From NCBI GenBank assembly GCA_030345135.1, contig CP128386.1, positions 961,129 through 1,025,128 on the forward strand: a stretch of DNA of 64,000 nt. The letters run 5' to 3'. Of the stretch, positions 3,030 through 34,098 are shown one piece after another. How positions within the stretch are numbered: the first letter of the stretch is position 1; every line of letters starts with the position of its first letter. A program made the translations under genes and the position numbers. The notes beneath the pieces are model-generated. The model was given only the letters and a program-made list of their open reading frames with translations, was not told where the DNA came from and made no database searches. Source of the DNA: Chitinophagaceae bacterium DXS. GTDB lineage: Bacteria > Bacteroidota > Bacteroidia > Chitinophagales > Chitinophagaceae.

Positions 3030-4289
3030 ATGAGAAAGATAATTTATACCGCCGTTGCATTGTTAATGGCCAGCGTGGTTATTTATGCGCAGGAGCCCCA
3101 AATGCATGTGCCATTAGGTGGAAACACTTTTTTTGACAAGCAAAGCAAAAAGATAAAACTGAATGAAAATGGCATTTCAAACTGGACCGATAATGCCGTT
3201 CATCCGGTTGTATATGTGAGGGTAAATAAAACCGGCAGTTTAAAGATTGATCTTAAAGCAAAGTGTAGCTCCGGAAATAGTAAGGTTGGCATTTCCGCCG
3301 GAACATCAAAAGCTTCGCTGAACATAACGGATAAAGATTGGAAAGTATATGAAGGGTTTGCATACAACGTTACAGACACCGGTTATATCGCTGTTAAGCT
3401 GGAACTATTGAATGGGACTGCGCCCGATATCTCAGATTTAATTATTAGCGGTTCTGCAACAGAAGGGAAAGTGGATTATGTAAGAGATGAGTTTTATTGG
3501 GGAAGGAGAGGGCCTTCCGTACATCTCAATTATTTATTGCCGGAAGACAAACAGTTTGAATGGTTTTATAATGAATTAACTATCCCCGTTGGATCGGATC
3601 CGCTTGGTTCTTATTTTATGAGCAATGGATTTGGTGAAGGATATTGTGGCATCCAGGTGAATTCGCCTACCGAAAGACGGGTTTTGTTTTCAGTTTGGAG
3701 CCCGTTTAAAACAGACGATCCCAAAAGTATTCCTGATTCTGCAAAGATCAAATTGCTTAAACAAGGGGAAGGCGTGCATATTGGCGAGTTTGGCAACGAA
3801 GGTTCTGGTGGACAAAGCTATCTCCGTTATAGCTGGAAAGCGGGAAACACTTATAAATTTCTAACGCATGTAAAACCCGACGGCAAAGGAAGAACGGAGT
3901 ACACTTCTTACTTCTTTGCACCGGAGCAAAATAAATGGATGCTGATAGCTTCTTTTTCACGTCCGCTGACAAATACATACTATAAACACGCGCATTCATT
4001 CCTTGAAAATTTTGATCCTGAAATGGGAGCGCACAACCGCAAGGTATTCTGCAACAATCAGTGGGCGATGGACACCAATGGTAACTGGACGGAATTGACG
4101 AAAGCGCGTTTTACTGCTGATGCTACAGCAAAAAAAGGTGCACGTTATGATTATGCAGGAGGGGAAGAGAACGGTTCTTTCTACATGACAAATTGCGGGT
4201 TCTTTAAAACGTATACGCCGATTAACAGCGTGTTTGAAAGAAAGGCAATGGGTAAACAGCCTGTTATTGATTTTAAAACATTACCGTGA
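3030..4289 (+). CDS. Secreted DUF5077/DUF3472 protein
   Basis: A 419-residue protein with an N-terminal signal peptide (hydrophobic core to about residue 20, ending VVIYAQ). Residues 25-140 look like the N-terminal DUF5077 carbohydrate-binding-like domain. Residues 165-400 match DUF3472 (GRRGPSVHLNYLLP, IGEFGNEGSGGQSYLRYSWK, EENGSFYMTNCGFF). Biochemical function is not established for this family. It is common in Bacteroidota polysaccharide loci and probably acts in periplasmic or surface glycan binding. It lies just after the GH109-like gene, but a terminator between them argues for separate transcripts. The stop codon is followed at once by AAGCTTAAAGCC word repeats. Confidence 0.85.
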   Translation: MRKIIYTAVALLMASVVIYAQEPQMHVPLGGNTFFDKQSKKIKLNENGISNWTDNAVHPVVYVRVNKTGSLKIDLKAKCSSGNSKVGISAGTSKASLNITDKDWKVYEGFAYNVTDTGYIAVKLELLNGTAPDISDLIISGSATEGKVDYVRDEFYWGRRGPSVHLNYLLPEDKQFEWFYNELTIPVGSDPLGSYFMSNGFGEGYCGIQVNSPTERRVLFSVWSPFKTDDPKSIPDSAKIKLLKQGEGVHIGEFGNEGSGGQSYLRYSWKAGNTYKFLTHVKPDGKGRTEYTSYFFAPEQNKWMLIASFSRPLTNTYYKHAHSFLENFDPEMGAHNRKVFCNNQWAMDTNGNWTELTKARFTADATAKKGARYDYAGGEENGSFYMTNCGFFKTYTPINSVFERKAMGKQPVIDFKTLP

Positions 4290-4318
4290 TAAGCTTAAAG
4301 CCTAAAGCGCAAAGCTTA
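4290..4318. repeat. AAGCTTAAAGCC word repeat abutting a stop codon
   Basis: Three copies of an AAGC(T/G)(T/C)AAAGC word begin at the first base after the DUF3472 TGA stop. Confidence 0.7.
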
Positions 4319-4325
4319 GAACTGG

Positions 4326-4354
4326 ATCCCGGGGGCAAGCCCGGGATTTTTTTT
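4326..4354 (+). terminator. Rho-independent terminator
   Basis: ATCCCGGG pairs with CCCGGGAT around a short loop and is followed by eight T residues. Confidence 0.85.
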
Positions 4355-4359
4355 GAACC

Positions 4360-5230
4360 ATTGAAAGAATTTTTTAAACCATATAAGGCATATAAGAAAA
4401 TATAAGATGGGACGAAAAACGTACTGGCTCCGAATAGAATGGTTCTTGATACTAGAAAATTTGATTTGTGCTAATGTCTTTCATTCCCTGGTAAACTTTC
4501 TGCAACAAGCCCTGAAAGGGCGACCAGCATTAGTCCAGGGCAACGCCCGGGATAATAAATGCAATATCGATTAAGCCCTGAAAGGGCGAAAGCAAAACGA
4601 AAAATAGTTTGCATTCCTTTTTATGTTTACGCACTTGAAATGCGTTACAGTTCTTATCCTAAAGATAACCACTGCTCATTTTTAGCATAAAAAACCTATT
4701 ATTTACGATGGTATAAAAAAGATTGTGGGGAGTTGCTAACGCCCTTTCAGGGCTTGACAAACATTTGTGACCTTGTCCATAGGGCGTTGCCCCATGCTAA
4801 TGCTCCAAGGCCTTCAGCCTTGGCCATTGAAACTTTTCGCTGTCAGCAATGAACTTTCAACCTTTACATGCAGCCAATGTAGCGAAGTAACCGAAGTAGG
4901 TCAATCAAAACCTTTATATCCTTATATGCCTTATGTGCAACTAGTCAATGGTCAATGGTGAAGGTCCGAGCTGGTTAAGTAAATATATTGCCGTTTAAGT
5001 GTTATTATTATGATCCCTGGCAAAAGTTCTTATTTGCTCTTATATTTTTTAAATGGTTTAAAAACCTTCGCTTCGGTCAGCTTTAGGCTTTACGCTTTGG
5101 GCTTTAAGCTTTCTCAGTTGTTTACGAAGAAACGTTGGCGCGGCCAACACCTTACTTATATGGTTCGATAGTTTTAGCCTTTAAGCTTTGAGCTTTAAGC
5201 TTTCACCAGGATCATTAACTTAGCTAATCT
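4360..5230. repeat. Long intergenic region with CCCTGAAAGGGCG palindromes and word repeats
   Basis: No gene is supported in this stretch. It holds two direct copies of the GCCCTGAAAGGGC palindrome (4509-4521, 4575-4587) and one reverse copy (about 4740-4754), accompanied by GGGCAACGCCC (near 4538) and its partner GGGCGTTGCCCC (near 4781). Together these form a loose large inverted repeat. AGCTTTAGGC/AAGCTTTGAGC words follow at 5074-5116 and 5176-5206. The palindromes resemble REP-like elements common in Bacteroidota. Open frames here read through repeats. Confidence 0.7.
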
Positions 5231-5254
5231 TTTAGATGGTTAAATCAAATCAAT

Positions 5255-5779
5255 ATGCAACAACCTGAAGTTTGGATGCGTGGTCCCGCAGAGGGTGTGC
5301 CATCTTTATTGCAACCCGCGGCACATGCACTTTTACAGGCAAGAGAAGAAGTTAATGAAATAATGAACAACTTTCCGGATAACCTCTTGTGGGAACGGCC
5401 GGCAAATGTTGCCTCTCCTGCATTTCATCTGCAACATCTGAGCGGTGTAATTAACCGCCTGCTGACTTATGCAAAAGGAGAAATGCTTAACCAGGAACAA
5501 TTGGACGCTCTTGCTAAAGAAGGCAAAGAAGACAGCTCCATAACGGTAGCCGGATTGTTGAAACAATTCAACGAACGCATAGACGAAGCAATCAGTCAAT
5601 TAAAAAATACGGACGAAAAAACACTTACTGATTTTCGAGGCGTGGGCCGCAAACAATTGCCATCAACGGTTCAGGGCTTGTTGTTTCATGCGGCCGAACA
5701 TACCATGCGGCACCTGGGACAGTTACTGGTAACAGTAAGGATTATCCGAAGTCAGGCAAAACAGCAACGTGGCTTATAA
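5255..5779 (+). CDS. DinB-like (YfiT/DinB_2) putative metal-dependent protein
   Basis: A 174-residue soluble protein with the DinB four-helix-bundle pattern. The putative metal-binding histidines sit in FHLQHLSGVINRLL (around residue 50) and in HAAEHTMRHLGQLLVT (around residue 148). Family members include thiol-dependent transferases and many uncharacterized proteins, so the reaction is unknown. It appears monocistronic, with its own terminator immediately downstream. The start ATG was chosen because it is the first in frame and gives a length typical of the family. Confidence 0.8.
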   Translation: MQQPEVWMRGPAEGVPSLLQPAAHALLQAREEVNEIMNNFPDNLLWERPANVASPAFHLQHLSGVINRLLTYAKGEMLNQEQLDALAKEGKEDSSITVAGLLKQFNERIDEAISQLKNTDEKTLTDFRGVGRKQLPSTVQGLLFHAAEHTMRHLGQLLVTVRIIRSQAKQQRGL

Positions 5780-5783
5780 AGAC

Positions 5784-5817
5784 AATCCCTGAAATAAATT
5801 ACTCCAGGGATTTTTTT
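5784..5817 (+). terminator. Rho-independent terminator
   Basis: AATCCCTG and CAGGGATT form the stem and a T-run follows, just after the DinB-like stop. Confidence 0.8.
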
Positions 5818-5839
5818 ATTTGAGTGTATGAAACTGAAA

Positions 5840-6163
5840 CTAAGGTTTGAGTTCTTCCAGTATAATTTCCCTTATTTCTGATTGCTGATTAAAAATATCT
5901 GTGAGCTGTAATGTAAGATAGTAAGTCTTCTTTTCTGAAGGCAGGTTGGGAACATGGATGGCTACATTTCTTGCGTCCGGATCGGTGCCTTCCTGCGTTG
6001 CGATTGGTTTTCCTGTATGCGCCTGGTTGTCGTACACTGCAATAGTGTAGGAAAGCTGCGGTGCGTTTGAGGTCTTAATTGACCAGTTAACATACATGTT
6101 CTTATCATCCTTATCGTAGTAAACACCGGCATCATAAATAGCTGCCGCGTTGATGATGGTTTT
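5840..6163 (-). pseudogene. C-terminal remnant, probably of a DUF3472-type secreted protein
   Basis: An open stretch of 107 residues with no proper start. It opens directly after an in-frame TGA (6164-6166) with KTIINAAAIYDAGVYYDKDD. The internal ATG at 6097 gives only 85 residues. Content is beta-rich and fibronectin-III-like (YVNWSIKT, LSYTIAVYDNQ, YYLTLQLTDIFNQ), as found at the C-terminus of some DUF3472 proteins. On the same strand, 4.9 kb upstream, lies the truncated N-terminal part of a DUF3472-type gene (11058-11561). The two may be ends of one ancestral gene. Pairing them is inference. Confidence 0.5.
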
Positions 6164-6166
6164 TCA

Positions 6167-6635
6167 ATGTTTCATTTAAAAAGGAAGTGATTATCTTTCT
6201 TGATGACTTTCACTGCATGATTTTATTTGCAGTCGTTGCAGGCAAAAGGTTTTGCATAAGTTGCTACATCTGGTACAAGTAAATCTGTTGTTAGTAGTTT
6301 TTGTAGAAGGTATAATAACTTAAGTATAAATAAATAATATTTTTTTATTAAATAATAAGTTTTATTTATATTAGCAACGTCTAATTAATCTAAAAATATA
6401 ATATGTCCATACGCCGTTTTTGTAAATTCTGTTTAGGCTATTTAATATTTAAACCAATCTTTAGATAAGTTGCCCTGTGAATTTGCGAAAATTAAGATTA
6501 GTTGACATGTCTATTAATTGAAGATGCTAGCGTGTGTTCAATGATCAAAAAATTAAACTTGTGAGCTATATCTATATTGTTTTTTATTGAATAATCATAA
6601 CTAATTGAGTCCATCACCCCTAAAGCCCATATAAT
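6167..6635. other. AT-rich non-coding stretch
   Basis: About 470 bp, strikingly AT-rich, with no supported gene. It marks the left junction of the AT-rich glycan block and probably contains the promoter of the glycosyltransferase. No convincing terminal inverted repeat was seen. Confidence 0.5.
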
Positions 6636-7643
6636 TTGAAAAGTAAATTAGAGTTTCAATCTCTCATATCGGTTGTTGTTCCTTTTTTAAATGAGGAAGA
6701 TAATGTTGATCTAATGTATAGTGCTCTTTCTGAAGAATTACTATCATCTACCTATGAAATTATTTTTATAGACGACGGTAGTTCTGATAACACTTGGGGG
6801 CGAATAATGGGTTGTATCCATTTTGATAAAAAAGTAAAAGGTATAAAACTATCTCGATGTTTTGGGCATCAAAATGCTTTAAAAGCAGGAATTGACATTG
6901 CAAAAGGTGATTGTGTAATTACGATCGACGGCGATTTGCAGCAGCCCCCACATGTGATCAATAACTTAATTCAGAAATGGAAAGAAGGGTACAAGATAGT
7001 TAACGCAGAAAGAGTATCAAATTCAAATCAAGGTATAATAAAAGGTATTCTTTCTCAATTTTTTTATCTAATATATAAATACCTAAATAAATCTCAGACG
7101 CTCAATTGGAATGTTTCTGATTTTCGACTTATGGATCGGCAAGTTGTAAATATTCTAAAAGAAATAAGCGGACAAAATTTATTTATTAGAGGCACCATTC
7201 AGTGGATGGGATTTAGGCAATCTTATGTCAAATATCAGCTGCAAAAGAGAGCTTTTGGGCAATCTAAATTTACACTAAAAAAAATGCTTGAATTGGCAAG
7301 TATAGGACTAACTTCTGGAGGAATCACGCCTTTGAGATTATCCCTTTTTATGGGATTTATTTTCGCCTTTTTCGCTTTTATTTATTGTCTTTATGCGTTG
7401 TATGCGACCATTTTTTTGAAGTCAGTAATGCCGGGATGGGCGTCTGTTATTGCGAGTATATTATTACTATCCGGCGTTCAGCTAATAGTATTAGGGATAA
7501 TCGGCGAATATATTGGGAAACTTTTTATTCAAAGCAAAAAACATCCTAGTTATATCATCGATGAAATAAGTAAAGATTCATCTGAATTAGTAAAGGATAA
7601 GTATTTAGTCAACCCATACAATAATAAAAACAAAAACGAATGA
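6636..7643 (+). CDS. GT2 glycosyltransferase, polyprenyl-phosphate type (GtrB/DPM1-like)
   Basis: A 335-residue membrane-anchored glycosyltransferase. The GT-A fold is visible as ISVVVPFLNEEDNVD (residues 10-24), FIDDGSSDNTW, ITIDGDLQQPP with the metal-binding DxD-type aspartates, and DFRLMDRQVV. Two C-terminal membrane segments (about 236-262 and 270-295) match the GtrB/ArnC/Dpm1 architecture, which transfers a sugar from a nucleotide donor to a lipid carrier. The start is TTG: an in-frame stop lies five codons upstream and the next ATG would remove the catalytic N-terminal strand. It overlaps the next gene by four bases (ATGA). Base composition is much more AT-rich than the flanks. Confidence 0.88.
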   Translation: MKSKLEFQSLISVVVPFLNEEDNVDLMYSALSEELLSSTYEIIFIDDGSSDNTWGRIMGCIHFDKKVKGIKLSRCFGHQNALKAGIDIAKGDCVITIDGDLQQPPHVINNLIQKWKEGYKIVNAERVSNSNQGIIKGILSQFFYLIYKYLNKSQTLNWNVSDFRLMDRQVVNILKEISGQNLFIRGTIQWMGFRQSYVKYQLQKRAFGQSKFTLKKMLELASIGLTSGGITPLRLSLFMGFIFAFFAFIYCLYALYATIFLKSVMPGWASVIASILLLSGVQLIVLGIIGEYIGKLFIQSKKHPSYIIDEISKDSSELVKDKYLVNPYNNKNKNE

Positions 7644-8347
7644 AAAGGACAAAAATCGTCGTTCTAACAGTTTCTATGATTTCTGGATTTATTTTATTTT
7701 TTGCTTGTTCAAAAAGAGACAACAAAGACTTATTTGAAGGTTTGAATAGTAACGGGAATCTAGAATATTACCGCAGCATACTCAATTCTAATAAGCTGAG
7801 TGGAAAAGAGTTTTATCTGGTGCTTAATAAATATGAAAAACTGGTAAGGGATAGTCTTATACAGGCCTCGAAGTCGGAAAATACACATGAAAATGATAGA
7901 GTGCTGGAGAACTCTTTACAGTATGTAACTACGTTAAAATACTGCTCGACGTCCGGAGTCATGACGGGTGCTGGTAATGGTATTTTGCTTCAAACTGGTA
8001 GCAACTCAAGTGGATCAATACAGGCTTCAGCATTTGCAATAAGCGGATCGCATGGCACGATCTCTCAAGTTGGAAGTTTGGAGCAAGGAAGTAATTTTCA
8101 AGGTGTAAGTACTGTGAGGTTTTACCTTCAAGGGGATTTCAGTACGTCTTCAACTATTAACGGAGGGTATAATACGACTATTGGAACAAGTAACACATCA
8201 GTCGGTGCCACCGCTGGGTATTCTTCAACAAGTAGTGGTTATCAATCAAACATCTATGTTGTTACTGCTAATATGCAGAGTGGTTGCCCTGTAGCATTGT
8301 CTGCAGTGATTTTGCCGCCCGGTACTTCAATAGAACCTTTGCCTTAA
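7640..8347 (+). CDS. Lipoprotein of unknown function
   Basis: A 235-residue protein with a lipoprotein signal (hydrophobic core, then FFACSKRDNKD with the lipidated cysteine near residue 23). The N-terminal half is charged and helical-looking. The C-terminal half (residues about 110-235) is rich in Ser, Gly and Thr, which suggests a beta-structured or low-complexity surface domain. No family is recognised. Its ATG overlaps the glycosyltransferase stop, so the two are co-translated. The product may be a substrate or partner of the glycosylation genes, which is inference. Confidence 0.7.
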   Translation: MKRTKIVVLTVSMISGFILFFACSKRDNKDLFEGLNSNGNLEYYRSILNSNKLSGKEFYLVLNKYEKLVRDSLIQASKSENTHENDRVLENSLQYVTTLKYCSTSGVMTGAGNGILLQTGSNSSGSIQASAFAISGSHGTISQVGSLEQGSNFQGVSTVRFYLQGDFSTSSTINGGYNTTIGTSNTSVGATAGYSSTSSGYQSNIYVVTANMQSGCPVALSAVILPPGTSIEPLP

Positions 8348-8868
8348 GGCAACTACATTACTTTACAATCGGGGTCGGTGATTAATACTGTTTATCGTTA
8401 TTATTGTAAGGTTATTTTCGAAAATTAAACAGATAAGACCTGCGCTGAAGTGTCCGCCCTTATCTCGGGCTGTGCTGATTTAAGTAATTCTGTGCAAGAT
8501 TTTCGGACTAACTCCTTAAAAATTCTTACACTTTCAATACTGCTATATTTTGATTAAAATAGGGATTAATTTATTTTGTATGCTTTGACTAAATCCTATT
8601 TTATGCCCGATAGTAGTAGAAATCGATAGATGAGTGCTTAGAATAGCAGCGGCAGGTCTTATTGATGTTTCGTAGGTTTGTTATCATGTATATTACCTCC
8701 ATAAGTATTTAATCAGTAATGTCAAAAACTGGCACATATTGCGTTTTAAAATACAATGTGCTTGAATGATTATGAACTCCGCCTAAGAACTCAAAGCCAC
8801 TGATGCCAGGCTATCTATCTATCTATCTATCTTGGTGTTTTATTTTTAGAAAAGATAAAAAAATAAAA
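8348..8868. other. Intergenic stretch without a supported gene
   Basis: AT-rich, about 520 bp. A GCAGGTCTTA-type word near 8653 is the complement of AAGACCTGC near 8436. The stretch ends in the CTAT tetranucleotide tract described separately. No RNA gene recognised. Confidence 0.4.
8811..8832. repeat. CTAT tetranucleotide tract (5.5 copies)
   Basis: Five CTAT units plus CT lie between an upstream in-frame ATG (8803) and the likely start ATG (8869) of the membrane glycosyltransferase-like gene. A change of one unit would shift the frame of any translation starting at 8803. Confidence 0.75.
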
Positions 8869-10044
8869 ATGTCTTTTTATAATCAAAATATTTCGAAATA
8901 TTTTAGTTGCATTAACTTAGCAATCTTACTTTATTTGTTAATATTCCTTCCAATACTATCGACTAGTTTTATCCCAGATTCGGATGATATTTGGTATGTT
9001 GTGGACAATCCGCAATTGGAAAGCTTTCGCTTTAAAGAGGTTTTTTTTAGTTCATATAAGGGGCAATACTCTCCAATGAACACGCTTATTTTATTTTTGA
9101 TTAAGGAGGCTTTTGGTTTAAAAGCCTTTTATTTCCATTTATATTCCGTTGCATTACATGCTGCTAACACTGTAATTCTCTATAATATCATTTTAATCCT
9201 TTTTAGTGGAAAAGAACAATGTAAACATATATCTTTTTTGATCGCATTTTTATTTTTATTCCATCCTCTACAAATAGAGGCAGTGGCCTGGATATCGGCA
9301 AGTAAGTGGTTATTGGTTACTTTTTTCATGCTTTTGTCAGTTTTGTTTTATTTACAATACACTATTCACTCAAATTCCGGTTGTTTTGTTTACAGTTTTT
9401 TGTTTTTTTTTCTGGCTTTCTTATCAAAAGAAGTAAGCGTAGTTCTCCCCTTATTACTTCTAGTTATTGAAATTTTCTTTTTAAAAAGAGGTTTTTTTGC
9501 AATGAGAATTCTACTTCCTTATTTTGGTTTTTCTCTGATTTTCGGAATTGTCACTTTGCAGTTCCCAATTTTTCAACCAGATATGCAGCAGCTAAGAATA
9601 GAGGGAACTTTTAATTTTGTGGATAATATTGTTTTTAGCTTCGGTTGTCTAGCTGACTATTTTTTTTACTTGATCATTCCCATTCATAGAGGATGGGCTC
9701 TTGGTCTTATTACTGGACAAGAAAATATGCTGCCTACCGCATCAGCAGTCGTGGTAATAATTTTTTGTGTTGGGTTATATTATTTTACAGATGATATCAA
9801 GTTGATGGGCTGTTTTTTATTTTTCGTTACTAGTGTCTTTTTTACATTGCCAATTTTTCCCGCAATAAAGACCTGTCTCATTGCTGATAGATATGTTTAT
9901 TTTGCGGGAATAGGTATATGGAGCAGTCTGATCTATATGCTCCATGACAAAAATAATTATATAAAAGCACTTTTGTATTCGTATATGCTGTACTTGGTAA
10001 TTTTTGATTTAATCGAAACCGGAAAGTGGTATAATGTATTGTGA
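8869..10044 (+). CDS. Polytopic membrane protein, TMTC/GT-C-like
   Basis: About 391 residues from the ATG at 8869. An alternative start at 8803 adds 22 residues encoded partly by a CTAT tract. About ten hydrophobic segments are visible. The motifs resemble the N-terminal half of TMTC-type O-mannosyltransferase-like proteins: an acidic first loop (FIPDSDDIWYVVDNP), SPMNTLILFLIKEAFGL, FHLYSVALHAANTVIL and FHPLQIEAVAWISASKWLL. The acidic DD in the first loop fits GT-C catalysis. It stops at GKWYNVL, where relatives usually continue into a soluble TPR region, so it may be a short form or truncated. Very AT-rich, like its neighbours. Confidence 0.7.
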   Translation: MSFYNQNISKYFSCINLAILLYLLIFLPILSTSFIPDSDDIWYVVDNPQLESFRFKEVFFSSYKGQYSPMNTLILFLIKEAFGLKAFYFHLYSVALHAANTVILYNIILILFSGKEQCKHISFLIAFLFLFHPLQIEAVAWISASKWLLVTFFMLLSVLFYLQYTIHSNSGCFVYSFLFFFLAFLSKEVSVVLPLLLLVIEIFFLKRGFFAMRILLPYFGFSLIFGIVTLQFPIFQPDMQQLRIEGTFNFVDNIVFSFGCLADYFFYLIIPIHRGWALGLITGQENMLPTASAVVVIIFCVGLYYFTDDIKLMGCFLFFVTSVFFTLPIFPAIKTCLIADRYVYFAGIGIWSSLIYMLHDKNNYIKALLYSYMLYLVIFDLIETGKWYNVL

Positions 10045-10099
10045 TTGTACTTCGTGGATTATTTAATTGGTAGCTGACATCAGTAAATTATTTATATAA

Positions 10100-11026
10100 A
10101 TGCCAACACACAAAATTAATTGCACCTTTTGCGGTAGCAGCAACACACTCCTGCTTTATAAACATAAGTACCATCCATACATTACTCAACATGGGCCAAT
10201 CGATTTTTATAAATGCAAATATTGCAAGTCAGGTTTTACTTATCCATTGCCAACATCCACTTCCCTCGCAAATCTATATGCTTCTTTTTGTGACGGTCTA
10301 AATCCAAATACTAAAAAGATGAGACTGGAAAGTTCTTTTGATAAGTGGTTTAACCAATGTATTAATAATGCGCTCAATTATAGCCAGAAGAAGTACACTT
10401 CGAAAGATTATTTTACATGGATAGATATTGGTGCAGGAGGGGGAGAGCTCTCGAAATTAATGTCAAAAAAATTTCCTAGATCGAAAGGAGTAGCGATCGA
10501 TTTTCATCCTAGACCAAAATTTCTTGATGATTGTAAAAATCTCGAGTGGCTGCAAGTAGACTTAAATAAAAAAGGATTTGGATCTATTTTTAGATCAAAA
10601 TTTGATTTAGTATTCTCAATCACAGTTATAGAACATATACTTATACCTAATGTATTTATATCAGACTGCTTGTCTATCATGAAAAATACAGGGACCTTTT
10701 ACATCACGGCACCAGCATTTGGGAGCTTAGCTTCCAGAATTTTAAAGGGACGTTGGTCGTATTTAATATTTGGTGAACATATAAATATACCATCGAAAAG
10801 AGGGATTATATTGCTGATGAGTCAAGAGGCTAACAATAAACAATTTAATAAACCTATTATTTTTTCTCGCTCTATAATTCTGCCATATCCGTTGGTTTAC
10901 TACTTAAAGCATTTTGGACTTAATAATATCGCAAATTTTTTTTCGGAAAAAATTTGTTTGTCACTTCCTACAGGAATTCTGGAAGCGGGCGTGTGTTTTA
11001 AAAATGAACCCCTGACTTCACGATAG
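10100..11026 (+). CDS. Class I SAM-dependent methyltransferase with N-terminal zinc-binding motif
   Basis: A 308-residue cytoplasmic protein. Residues 8-45 carry CTFC and CKYC pairs that probably bind zinc, as in methyltransferases of sugar and lipopolysaccharide clusters. The SAM-binding motif I is FTWIDIGAGGGELSKLM near residue 110. An acidic residue follows in VAIDFHPRP, and motif IV-like FDLVFSITVIEHI is near residue 175. The substrate is probably a nucleotide- or lipid-linked sugar, by context with the upstream glycosyltransferases. It is the last gene of the AT-rich block and ends 32 bp before the broken DUF3472 gene on the other strand. Confidence 0.82.
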   Translation: MPTHKINCTFCGSSNTLLLYKHKYHPYITQHGPIDFYKCKYCKSGFTYPLPTSTSLANLYASFCDGLNPNTKKMRLESSFDKWFNQCINNALNYSQKKYTSKDYFTWIDIGAGGGELSKLMSKKFPRSKGVAIDFHPRPKFLDDCKNLEWLQVDLNKKGFGSIFRSKFDLVFSITVIEHILIPNVFISDCLSIMKNTGTFYITAPAFGSLASRILKGRWSYLIFGEHINIPSKRGIILLMSQEANNKQFNKPIIFSRSIILPYPLVYYLKHFGLNNIANFFSEKICLSLPTGILEAGVCFKNEPLTSR

Positions 11027-11057
11027 CTATATAGTGTTTGAACGAAGCCGAATGATG

Positions 11058-11561
11058 CTATTCTTTTTTTGTATGATCATAAATAAAGTATCCTACTTGT
11101 GTTTTGTCTCCGCCTGTATACCACCTACGGACAACATTTGTATACCATTGTCCTGGCACCCAGCCAAAATCACAATATGAATGCTGGCCGATTCCTTCTC
11201 CACCAAATCCATCAAAAGTCATGGGATCTTTATACACAGCGTGGATTTGCACTTTATTCGGAAAATCCAAAATAGAAAAAATGTTGTTCAAGGGAATACT
11301 ATGCTCACCTTTTCCATTTTTGTTTTGCAAGCCACAGTTGCCGCCGCTTTTGCCGATACCAAACTGTACCGCGCATGTGTATGTATAAGGCGCGTTGCCT
11401 TCCGCTGGTGTCATTACATCTGCCATCAACAGATCGGCAGTTGCGCTCGTTTGAAATTTAGCGCCAACATATGGTCTTCATTTTGGGCAGGATTGGGCCT
11501 TCAGTTTATCTGCATGGATAACTGACGCAAAAAGCAAGGCGAGTAAAAGAGTTCTTTTCAT
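11058..11561 (-). pseudogene. Broken DUF3472-type secreted protein, N-terminal part
   Basis: On the minus strand a signal peptide starts at 11561 (MKRTLLLALLFASVIHA) and the same frame runs to 11058, interrupted once by TGA at codon 28 (after QSCPK). Past that stop the sequence continues coherently: GGEGIGQHSYCDFGWVPGQW and VVRRWYTGGDKTQVGYFIYD, typical of DUF3472. It then ends abruptly at the edge of the AT-rich block, without the second half of the domain. Both the internal stop and the truncation indicate a decayed gene. A plausible 3' end lies at 5840-6163. Confidence 0.72.
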
Positions 11562-11576
11562 ATTTGTTCATGCTAA

Positions 11577-11619
11577 AAAGAACTGCATCTTTCGGACGTC
11601 GCCGTAAAGATGCAGTTTT
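11577..11619. terminator. Strong hairpin, probable bidirectional terminator
   Basis: AACTGCATCTTT (11581-11592) pairs with AAAGATGCAGTT (11606-11617) and A/T runs flank both sides. On the minus strand it would end the transcript of the SusC-like remnant before the broken DUF3472 gene. Confidence 0.75.
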
Positions 11620-11785
11620 GGTTAAGATAATAAGCTTTACTGAAAATGAAGCAGTGAATGCTATCTATGCGTAATGTTTAAAATTTTCAGGTCAATCAGG
11701 TATGATCCGGGTACTTGTACACGCATTGGTATTCTTATGGAAAAATCATACCCGGTCATCTTTAAAAGAGCCAAGATAATGTGGG

Positions 11786-12424
11786 TCAGCTTTGTCCTGG
11801 GTAGTAGCCGCCACCAACATTCGCAGCCCATGTTGCTGTACTGTCTATATGAACAAATTTTGTTGGTATGCGATAATACACATTGTATCCATTACCCAAT
11901 GATGCGATAGGAAATGGAACCAGCGGGAATTTTAAGAACATAGCTGTATCCAGTGCTTTGTAGATATCCGGTGCATAATCCTGTAAGTTTTGTAAAAAAG
12001 GCGGCGTTGGATTTAAACCTGAATTCGGGCGTTTTGCAACCTCACCTTTTGCGGGATTGAATACCTGGCCGTTCTTATCAGTTATTCTTACAATTACAAC
12101 ATTTGGTGTATCTGCAAAGCGGGTGATTTTTTCAACAACAAACGGATTGTTGGTTCCGTTAAAAAGCAAATTATTGGTTGGACCGCTTGCAGTATTAGCA
12201 AAGCCGGCCCAAGAGTCTACTTCATCAAGGATAGGCAACCTGTTGCGTGCAAAATTCTGCACGTTTACGCCAATCGCGTTGAGCTGTTGCTGCTGAGACT
12301 TGTTGATCACTGTTCTTTTCCACGAGAACGTGCATACAACGGACATCGAAAATTTTTTATAACTGATATCATTGGTGAAGCCGCCTGTGAACCTGGGGTT
12401 TCGGATTACTATATTTATAATTAA
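11786..12424 (-). pseudogene. C-terminal remnant of a SusC-like TonB-dependent receptor (probable)
   Basis: The open frame extends upstream of its first ATG (12346) to 12424 with no start codon in a plausible position. The first residues read like the end of a SusC barrel: NPRFTGGFTNDISYKKFSMS, then CTFSWKRTVIN and LPILDEVDSWAG. The remaining 130 or so residues, ending VGGGYYPGQS, are not recognised and do not end in the usual aromatic barrel residue. Two CAAACGTTTG palindromes lie only about 30 bp upstream of the remnant, as if a deletion fused an old promoter to the receptor's tail. Assignment to SusC rests on a short segment. Confidence 0.5.
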
Positions 12425-12455
12425 TTAAATAATTTATATATTAAATATAAAAATG

Positions 12456-12487
12456 CAAACGTTTGATTATTAATTATCAAACGTTTG
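12456..12487. promoter_or_regulatory. Two CAAACGTTTG palindromes spaced 22 bp
   Basis: Perfect copies at 12456-12465 and 12478-12487. Centre-to-centre spacing is 22 bp, about two helical turns, as expected for paired dimer binding. They lie immediately upstream of the SusC-like remnant (minus strand). Confidence 0.6.
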
Positions 12488-12547
12488 TGTTCTAATTTTA
12501 GTTTTAGACATTAAAAGCGGGTTATTAATAGAAGTTATTCTATTTTT

Positions 12548-12685
12548 ATGCAGATCAATTATTGGGGAAATTGGGCTATGTTGATCGGGCATGTGCAGTA
12601 TGCAGGTGCGAATTTTTCTTTGCGATATGGGTTGATGCGGGATAACGAGTTAAACGATGAGAAAATGTGGCAAATCCCTTTGTAA
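12548..12685 (+). pseudogene. Possible small gene fragment
   Basis: A 45-codon frame starting ATGCAGATCAATTATTGG encodes QINYWGNWAMLIGHVQYAG and ends at TAA. The frame continues past the stop with KETFGEWAKIKN, which is partly inside a terminator hairpin. No family recognised. It may be a gene remnant or chance. Confidence 0.2.
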
Positions 12686-12715
12686 AAAGAAACCTTTGGC
12701 GAATGGGCTAAAATA

Positions 12716-12755
12716 AAAAATGCCACATCACTCAGATAAATGATGCGGCATTTTT
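12716..12755 (-). terminator. Terminator of the sugar isomerase-like gene
   Basis: The arms at 12716-12730 and 12741-12755 match at 14 of 15 positions and are flanked by T- and A-runs on either strand. It sits 17 bases after the stop of the minus-strand gene. Confidence 0.8.
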
Positions 12756-12771
12756 ATTTTATTGGAATTGT

Positions 12772-13683
12772 TTAGTAACCCCAGCTCTTCATTATTTTGA
12801 AATCTTCTTTTACAGTATCCAGCGGAGCCATTCCCTGGTAAGATTCCTGTTCAATGATGAATTGAGTTGTTCCACCTGATTTTCTTCCAAGGTCCACAAT
12901 CTCTTTTACAGGAATAACGCCTTTACCAAGCACAGTGCTCTCATATCCGCCCATTTCACCTTTCTCACTTTTGATCTCGTCTTTTACGTGCATTGACTCA
13001 AATCTTCCGGGATATTTTTTCATGATGTCCAATGCTCTTCCGCCAGCGCCATACATATTACCGATATCAAGCTGCTGAACCACCAGTTTGGGATCTGTAT
13101 TTTGGAGGATCAGATCAAACAGTTTTTCACCACCAAGTTGTGTGCTGAATTCAAAATCGTGGTTATGGTAGCCGAAGCGCATTCCTGATTTTTTACAAAG
13201 CTCACCACTCTTGTTAAACACTTCCATATAGCGTTTAAAATCGTTGATGTCTTTGCGCAAGCTTTCATCCAGCCACGGACTGATCACGATTTGCTGGCCA
13301 ACAGTTGCAGCATCTTCCACAGTGTATTTCCATGCATCGGTAAAGTCTTTTTTACTTTCGTCCCAGTGGTTGCGGGCCATAACAGTATGTCCGCTTGGCA
13401 TGGAAAGGCCAAGATCGCTCAATACTTTTTTAAATTCTGTTGCTGAATAACCATAAAATTTCCGGTTGATGTAATTAGCGTGCTCAACATTTTTATAACC
13501 CATATCAGCCAGCGCTTTTAGTGTGGCCAATGGATCTTTCTTCATATCATCTCTTACAGAATACAACTGAACACCTAATAATTCATTTTTGCTTTTAGCG
13601 GCAAACAGTTCGTTGGACAACATGCTGCTTCCGGCAACAAACAGCGCGCTTGTTTTCAAAAAATTTCTGCGGGATTGATGCAT
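12772..13683 (-). CDS. Tat-exported sugar phosphate isomerase/epimerase-like TIM-barrel protein
   Basis: A 303-residue protein beginning with a twin-arginine signal (HQSRRNFLKTSALFVAG). The rest is an AP-endonuclease-2-type TIM barrel (xylose isomerase-like family): GVQLYSVRDDMKKDPLATLK, MRFGYHNHDFEF, QQLDIGNMYGAGG, ESMHVKD and a late FIIEQES, which supply the usual metal-binding His, Glu and Asp residues. Such exported proteins occur widely in Bacteroidota sugar and ketosugar metabolism. The substrate is unknown. A longer frame reaching 13896 is rejected because its extra residues only translate intergenic repeats. The start at 13683 precedes the Tat motif perfectly. Confidence 0.87.
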   Translation of the reverse strand: MHQSRRNFLKTSALFVAGSSMLSNELFAAKSKNELLGVQLYSVRDDMKKDPLATLKALADMGYKNVEHANYINRKFYGYSATEFKKVLSDLGLSMPSGHTVMARNHWDESKKDFTDAWKYTVEDAATVGQQIVISPWLDESLRKDINDFKRYMEVFNKSGELCKKSGMRFGYHNHDFEFSTQLGGEKLFDLILQNTDPKLVVQQLDIGNMYGAGGRALDIMKKYPGRFESMHVKDEIKSEKGEMGGYESTVLGKGVIPVKEIVDLGRKSGGTTQFIIEQESYQGMAPLDTVKEDFKIMKSWGY

Positions 13684-13725
13684 ATAAGTTTGTTTTGTTT
13701 TGGCAAGAAAGGAATAAATATAATT

Positions 13726-13935
13726 GAAAATGTGCAAATGAGGGAATGTGCAAATGGGAGAATGAAATTGACAATTGAAAGTTGACAATTGAAAATGGGG
13801 GATGTGCAAATTAGAGAATGTGCGAATATGCGAATGGAGAAATGTAATTGAAAATTGAAAAGTGACAATTGAAAATGGGAGAGACAGAATGTGCAAATAT
13901 GAGAATGTGCGAATATGCTAATGGAGGGGAGAGTT
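13726..13935. repeat. TGCAAATG / AATTGACAATTG word-repeat array
   Basis: Degenerate copies of GTGCAAATGAGAGAATG and ATTGAAAATTGACAATTG alternate over about 200 bp directly upstream of the Tat-exported isomerase-like gene. Confidence 0.75.
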
Positions 13936-14015
13936 GATAATCGATGAAAACCTTATCGAACAGACGCTTTCACCACCGACGTCGTTACCCAGTTATAAAA
14001 AATAAATTCAGTGTC

Positions 14016-25003: not shown

Positions 25004-25036
25004 AAAGAGGGTTTTAAGGCCGGAAAGGTAAGAAAT

Positions 25037-25325
25037 AGCTATCAGCTATTAGCTGTCAGCTATCAGCTTTTGGGTGTCAGGTGCCAGGTTTCAGGTATCA
25101 GGTATCAGGTATCAGGTATTAGGTATGAGGTATGAGGTATAAGGTTTTAGGCCTTACTCCCTGGACTTATATATCTATCCTTCGCACATTCTCGCATCCG
25201 CACATTTGCACATTCGCACATTTGCACATCCGCCCATCCGCACATTCGCGCATCCGCACATCCGCACATCCGCACATTTGCACATCCGCACATCCACAAT
25301 TCATTTTCAACTTTCACCTGTCAAT
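25037..25325. repeat. Large intergenic word-repeat array running into a coding end
   Basis: Three blocks: AGCTATCAGCTATTAGC (25037-25070), CAGGTATCAGGTATCAGG and GAGGTATGAGG (25076-25145), and CGCACATTTGCACATCC (25184-25300). The last part, TCAATTTTCAATTG, encodes the C-terminal residues of the FG-GAP lipoprotein. No gene lies in this stretch. Confidence 0.8.
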
Positions 25326-28700: not shown

Positions 28701-28836
28701 GAGTTGTACGTTGTACGTGATAAGTTTTACGTTATAAGTTTTACGTTGTACGTTATACGTTGCAAGTGGTGCAGGCTAATTACTCCATTAACCTGGCGCC
28801 TGAAACCTGAAGCTAATAGCTGATAGCTATTGGCTA
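28701..28836. repeat. Word repeats (GTTGTACGTTATACG, AGCTAATAGCTGATAGC)
   Basis: GTTTTACGTTGTACG words at 28703-28770 and AGCTGATAGCTATTGGC words at 28809-28840. The last copy contains the TGA stop codon of the SusD-like gene. Confidence 0.75.
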
Positions 28837-33571: not shown

Positions 33572-34098
33572 AGCTGGTTTGGTTTAATTATAAAAGAAGT
33601 AGACTTTCAGTAGACAAGTAATAGAAGACAGGGTCGGAAATGTTTCGATCATGCACTCATCGTCAAGATGAGTCATCCTGATTTTTGTTTCTCATGTCCT
33701 AAGCTTTAGCAGTTTATAAGTAAAAATTACAATAAGCTTTGGGAACTAGCAAATTGTGTTCCATTAGTCAAACGTTTGCGTAAAAAATAAAAAAAGAATT
33801 TAATCGATTTTAAATCTTTGATATCTGTACCTTAAAAAAAGATTACAAAAACAAGGCATATTTTTTATGTAATCGGTTTCAAAAAAAGAATCATCAAATG
33901 AACGGATGTTTGATCAATGGAAAGATCAGTGTCCTACGCTTTTAAATTGCACAAGGATTTTTGTTTGATTGCGAAACATGGTAAGATATTTTATTTTAGG
34001 AGAATGTTTTCAATGATGCTAAGGATATGCATTGTTTTAGTTCTTCTATGTTTCCTGCAATTAGAAATTTAGTTTGTAGTTAAACAAATGTCGTATTC
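33572..34098. other. Divergent intergenic region upstream of susC
   Basis: About 530 bp between susC (minus) and the phosphoesterase gene (plus). Apart from the CAAACGTTTG palindrome nothing recognisable was found: no ORF, hairpin or word-repeat array. Confidence 0.5.
33769..33778. promoter_or_regulatory. CAAACGTTTG palindrome upstream of susC
   Basis: A perfect copy of the palindrome also found before the GH109-like gene and before the SusC-like remnant. It lies about 198 bp from the susC start, so the transcript may have a long leader. Confidence 0.5.

Follow-up and report, generated by a model that had tools for sequence, protein, structure and literature searches.

Two short minus-strand fragments related to DUF3472 proteins lie on either side of an AT-rich set of plus-strand genes in Chitinophagaceae bacterium DXS, which raises the question of whether the fragments are the two ends of a single gene and, if so, how the block came to take the place of its missing part. 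The locus was examined in a window, i.e., the whole stretch of 64,000 nucleotides analysed here (contig CP128386.1, positions 961,129 to 1,025,128), whose own numbering is used throughout. The features are collected in Table 1.

Table 1. Features of the interrupted locus, in window coordinates
Feature	Position	Strand	Basis
C-terminal piece of the broken DUF3472 gene, residues 273–377 of 377	5843..6158	-	tblastn
6-bp direct repeat (ATGATG), left copy, edge of gene homology	6153..6158	.	
AT-rich block in place of the missing DUF3472 part	6159..11051	.	G+C; one genome copy
GtrB-like GT2 glycosyltransferase (putative polyprenyl-phosphate sugar synthase), TTG start	6636..7643	+	Pfam PF00535, E 2.3e-24
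Orphan 235-aa protein, lipoprotein-like N-terminus (by reading)	7640..8347	+	No family
GT-C-like membrane protein; true start possibly at the second ATG (8869)	8803..10044	+	Family relatives, conserved Asp
(CTAT)5.5 perfect tetranucleotide repeat, shortly before ATG 8869, in frame with ATG 8803	8811..8832	+	Sequence
Class I methyltransferase, N-terminal CxxC...CxxC stretch	10100..11026	+	Pfam PF13489, E 9.5e-11
6-bp direct repeat (ATGATG), right copy, edge of gene homology	11052..11057	.	
Broken DUF3472 gene, N-terminal piece, reaching ~residue 170 of 377	11052..11561	-	Pfam and tblastn
Tail of a protein of ~370 aa (about residue 180 onwards), fused to the SusC stub; frameshift near 11750–11800	11664..12223	-	Matches to relatives' loci
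Stub of a SusC-type receptor, about residues 889–952 of ~1070	12209..12406	-	Matches to relatives' loci
Two CAAACGTTTG palindromes 22 bp apart, operator-like, ahead of the SusC stub	12456..12487	.	Starts 12456, 12478

Two fragments of one DUF3472 gene

The N-terminal piece matches the Pfam family DUF3472 (PF11958) with an E-value of 4.6e-23 and a score of 82.6 bits against a curated cut-off of 24.8, covering only profile positions 7–161 of 269, so that the domain is incomplete. When each piece was searched in 79 genomes, both matched, beyond the window's own genome, only G009, where a single open frame of 397 codons contains both and encodes a protein of 377 residues. In tblastn, residues 3–174 of this intact protein correspond to window positions 11561–11040 (65% identity), and residues 273–377 to 6157–5843 (57% identity). 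The pieces are on one strand, in the expected order, and colinear without overlap on the G009 protein; searched against complete DUF3472 proteins, they matched neither unrelated families nor the same region. As the initial annotation had read them, the pieces are the two ends of one gene, with about 100 codons gone between them.

The position of the edges should be noted. The final few residues of the N-terminal tblastn match are doubtful, and the edge was taken from the DNA-level reading, in which homology to the DUF3472 gene ends at ATGATG at 11052–11057 and restarts at ATGATG at 6153–6158. Accordingly, ~102 residues (roughly 300 bp) of the gene are missing. The DUF3472 domain occupies residues 36–270 of the intact 377-residue protein. 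The gene has therefore lost the domain's second half, and the C-terminal piece is an extension beyond the domain. The initial annotation was right about the loss but had placed it in the middle of the domain. A search of the window's genome did not recover the missing part, detecting only the two pieces and a separate intact DUF5077-DUF3472 gene (3030–4289). This second gene lies 1.5 kb from the broken one and has a full-length relative (50% identical) in G107, on a contig with an intact sus-type locus. According to one report, DUF3472 also occurs in centipede proteins of bacterial origin (PMC7864903).

The N-terminal piece carries further damage: an in-frame TGA at 11478–11480 and an in-frame TAG at 11058–11060, both where relatives have Trp, and the loss of one codon. 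A gene free of such damage and of the block, for which a search had been proposed, is present in 5 of 344 family genomes, the window's own being included in the 344 (G009, G210, G139, G146, and G175). All five genes have a single frame with no stops, and the split gene is found in none of them. Constraint was compared among the window, G009, and G146, with G175 left out. Of the 151 columns on which G009 and G146 agree, 22 are changed in the window. The same count gives 30 of 159 when G009 is set against G146 and the window, and 44 of 173 when G146 is set against G009 and the window. The window branch is no faster than either of the others, so that the loss of constraint must be recent; the decay of the locus likewise looks recent.

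A relic of a sus-type locus beside the DUF3472 gene

Damage is also found upstream of the N-terminal piece. The minus-strand ORF at 11786–12406, which an annotator would call one gene, is in fact a fusion of two dead genes: residues 3–68 match a SusC-like protein of ~1,070 residues, and residues 66–206 match the end of a ~370-residue protein. The SusC stub joins the ~370-aa gene at about its residue 180, near 12209–12223, and the last 28–29 residues of the ~370-aa protein lie in another frame, at 11750–11664. Six loci were chosen from among the best matches to this ORF (L121–L126; genomes G217, G107, G009, G146, G090, and G045). In all six, the SusC gene comes first, followed by genes for a ~520-aa and a ~240-aa protein, with that for the ~370-aa protein last, and the ~370-aa tail lies about 3.3 kb downstream of the SusC part. 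Pfam detects SusC features, SusD, and fasciclin in L121; in L123, it detects SusC features and, below the cut-off, fasciclin. No complete SusC-SusD pair is present between 5840 and 12490, where there is the SusC stub only and no SusD. What has been lost next to the DUF3472 piece is a SusD-like gene, a fasciclin-like gene, and most of SusC.

The SusC stub, the fused tail, and the gap in the DUF3472 gene together indicate that this tract of the minus strand is what remains of a carbohydrate locus that suffered at least three large deletions, and several deletions and point mutations would have eroded it. At least three genes, the DUF3472 gene among them, are broken in this apparently recently decayed carbohydrate locus, and the sus-type locus has presumably lost its function. 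A relative of the SusC/tail ORF was found nowhere within the stretches fetched around the five intact DUF3472 loci; the stub and the DUF3472 gene therefore need not have been one operon. In the non-coding stretches at 4290–5260, 6159–6660, 8330–8880, 10030–10110, and 12400–12780, comparison with the loci collected for this analysis detected no gene remnants outside the window's own genome, and no RNA families were found in 4000–14000.

The palindromes ahead of the SusC stub may connect it with other carbohydrate genes. The same CAAACGTTTG pair with equal spacing is found 89–120 bp before the SusC gene of L125, and a shorter core, AAACGTTT, before that of L122; none is found at that place in the other four of the six loci. 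The window contains four copies of CAAACGTTTG (1423, 12456, 12478, and 33769) against 0.13 expected, a number reached by 0 of 100 shuffles. The copy at 1423 is upstream of a GH109-like gene (1514), and that at 33769 is upstream of an intact SusC-SusD pair (33571). Since each copy precedes a carbohydrate gene or relic, the palindromes are probably operators of one LacI-type regulator. A Bacteroidota-type promoter pattern gave 3 matches in the window against 3.9 expected, with zero inside the block. As for other repeated sequences of the window, 30 of 64 tandem repeats have a period of 7, 14, or 21, none of them inside the block, and degenerate heptamer arrays of the AAAGCTT and TATCAGG type occur, e.g., at 1034–1417, 5079–5203, 25036–25145, and 28702–28767.

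Genes of the block

The block had been described as a GT2/lipoprotein/GT-C-like/methyltransferase set, and it is read in the same way here, the GT2 enzyme and the methyltransferase being assigned by Pfam, and the two family-less proteins being read as lipoprotein-like and GT-C-like. The GT2 protein matches solved structures of GtrB (sll0501) with an E-value of 5.9e-71 over residues 11–311, i.e., the whole enzyme, and also resembles ArnC among solved structures. Related NCBIfam families match it below their curated cut-offs. The GT2 paralogs in the window's genome are just 28–31% identical to it over most of the length.

The orphan lipoprotein has no Pfam or NCBIfam family. Searches returned only the protein itself in the 344 family genomes, and itself with two weak partial matches in 257 genomes of the phylum; the latter (E 7e-5, with stops, and 7.5e-4) were taken as chance. 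Its fold predicted from the single sequence is uninformative (pLDDT 38).

The GT-C-like protein gave no match in Pfam, NCBIfam, or PDB sequences. Its relatives are found in 109 of the 344 family genomes, including the window's own, and are mostly longer, with some short ones of 421–441 residues. Near one of five short relatives (L106–L110), that of G333, there is a GT2 of this kind, and none is found near the other four at an E-value of 1e-4. In the first outside loop, the protein has an acidic pair, which we take to be the GT-C motif. Its second Asp is kept in 32 of 34 alignment rows, which correspond to 31 of 32 places, as two pairs of rows each represent the same place. The (CTAT)5.5 repeat near the start of the gene is a possible phase-variation tract, though short.

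Close relatives of the methyltransferase (37–45% identical) are found in three of the 344 family genomes, and three further places in another genome collection bring the total to six, the remaining two of the five matches in that collection being repeats of G182 and G309. Within the stretches fetched, a full-length GT2 match lies near the methyltransferase at four of the six places, a weak partial match at one, and none at one. At 26 weaker methyltransferase loci, used as a control, no GT2 match was found, in stretches shorter than those for the six close places, and the comparison is accordingly not an equal one. In the three family genomes (G182, G309, and G243), the GT2-methyltransferase set adjoins a riboflavin-synthase-like gene, recognised by reading. 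In these three loci (L103, L104, and L105), the side of the riboflavin-synthase-like gene looks like a site where variable glycan genes settle repeatedly.

The genes of the block probably decorate the cell surface with sugars. Polyprenyl phosphate would likely be loaded with a sugar by the GtrB-like enzyme, after which the GT-C-like protein would likely pass the loaded sugar to an outside acceptor; the methyltransferase would likely modify the sugar.

Composition and source of the block

The AT-rich insert of 4.9 kb that had been noted within the broken gene measures 4893 bp between the two ATGATG copies, with a G+C content of 33.0%. The rest of the window averages 41.2% (sd 1.4%, minimum 38.4%) over 987 overlapping stretches of block size, placing the block six sd below its surroundings. 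The four block genes have G+C contents of 32.6, 39.1, 31.1, and 34.2%, and 27–33% at third positions, against 42.6% (sd 2.2%) and 39.9% (sd 3.6%), respectively, for 31 background ORFs of the window, among which the relic ORF at 11786 is included. Codon use, which had been suggested as a check, did not single the block out, and base composition did: the codon-use z values of the four genes (−2.6, −1.7, −0.7, and −0.7) are within the range of background genes (−8.1 to +2.7). Synonymous codon use was therefore rejected as a mark of foreign origin.

It should be considered whether the block consists of the organism's own glycan genes relocated by a rearrangement. The unexceptional codon use is compatible with this explanation, as is the presence of methyltransferase and GT2 relatives in glycan loci of the same family. 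However, the large glycan locus native to this genome, which was recognised by reading without a family search, has G+C contents of 38.7–44.6% in all 17 of its listed ORFs, indicating that the 33% of the block is not simply typical of glycan genes in this genome. The block is single-copy, the distance to the GT2 paralogs is large, and the riboflavin synthase (ribE) side, where GT2 and methyltransferase genes are placed in three relatives, holds no such genes here. A native origin is thus quite improbable, and the block probably came from elsewhere. Viral and plasmid sources were considered and rejected, as the lipoprotein has no relative in viral contigs or in plasmids, and the methyltransferase alignment gave no match in viral contigs. 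A donor was not found: the closest methyltransferase relatives are 45% identical, and the lipoprotein has no relative.

The sharp shift in composition at both block edges could also be produced by a chimeric join, through misassembly or contamination. This is hardly credible, since the genome is a single contig of 7,287,640 bases rated 100% complete with 0.41% contamination, and the damage reaches neighbouring genes on DNA of native composition.

Junctions of the block

The two ATGATG copies form a 6-bp direct repeat exactly at both homology edges. When 15-base stretches of the window region are paired at random, 3.8% of the pairs share a 6-mer. In the intact genes, the homologous junction positions share 7 bases (GTCATTA) in G009, 6 in G210, 5 in G139, and 3 in G146, lengths reached by 0.6, 2.9, 12, and 91%, respectively, of random pairs of 15-base stretches from the same gene. 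A notable repeat at these places is therefore found in G009 and G210, whereas G139 and G146 have none. The direct repeat at the block edges weakly suggests illegitimate recombination. The repeat may be older than the insertion, in which case a deletion at short repeats would have been followed by the capture of foreign DNA, or it may be a target duplication.

Under the latter option, the block would be a mobile cassette that entered a gene already lacking its second half and duplicated a 6-bp target in doing so, the transposition genes of the cassette being lost or acting in trans. The exact position of the repeat and the unity of the AT-rich block fit such an event. However, as the initial annotation had stated, a transposase or integrase is not found among the subset of window ORFs scanned, nor is a terminal inverted repeat found among the inverted repeats listed (25 of 38), which likewise include none marking the block ends. 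The genome contains no second copy of the block, and similar short repeats already exist at the homologous sites of two of the four intact genes, so that ATGATG need not be a duplication. We regard this explanation as unlikely.

With two other large deletions no more than 1.5 kb away, illegitimate recombination in an already shrinking locus is favoured. The block fills exactly the gap. Insertion may have been accompanied by deletion, as proposed earlier, or the lost ~300 bp may belong to the general decay of the locus, as the neighbouring ORF carries two further large deletions. We consider it likely that the sus-type locus on the minus strand (12490 to 5840) decayed and that the gap in its DUF3472 gene was filled by a 4.9-kb AT-rich surface-glycosylation cassette, probably foreign, which would have come from outside and been joined by illegitimate recombination at the 6-bp direct repeat.

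Such an event is a known, ordinary kind of genome change and opens no new kind of mechanism. The locus is a clear example, with intact relatives to compare, of a carbohydrate locus caught decaying with a surface-glycan gene set in its gap. A broader reading is very improbable: the block would be a mobile surface-decoration cassette with no transposase of its own, and short direct repeats would be its points of entry into genes of glycan-foraging loci. If this were true, one step would cost the cell a glycan-use gene and bring a new surface glycan.

Comparison with known systems

Literature searches found nothing on the point for a decayed locus of this kind or for the structure 8pmu. Among solved proteins, GtrB of Synechocystis (sll0501, 5ekp) is the best relative of the block GT2: a DGD motif at residues 98–100 of the latter (by reading) is located where GtrB, described in PMC4728340 as a polyisoprenyl-phosphate glycosyltransferase with a DXD motif, has that motif.

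The glycan loci of G182, G309, and G243, from the same family, resemble the block in having a related methyltransferase and a GT2 about 38% identical to that of the block close together. Contrarily, the order, strands, and partner genes are different, and these loci have no relative of the orphan lipoprotein. The six sus-type loci share with the window the genes whose parts are matched by the ORF at 11786–12406, i.e., the first and the last in each of the six, and differ in retaining what the window has lost.

The gtr cassettes (GtrA-GtrB-GtrC) are glycosylation cassettes of enterobacterial phages. The block is similar to them in that a GtrB-like, putative polyprenyl-phosphate glycosyltransferase lies beside a large membrane GT-C-like protein in a block that appears to have been acquired. 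Unlike them, it has an additional methyltransferase and an orphan lipoprotein, no phage genes were seen, and Pfam detects no GtrA-like flippase among the four block proteins. In the absence of a GtrA-like family from these four proteins, the block is likened to a gtr cassette rather than filed as one.
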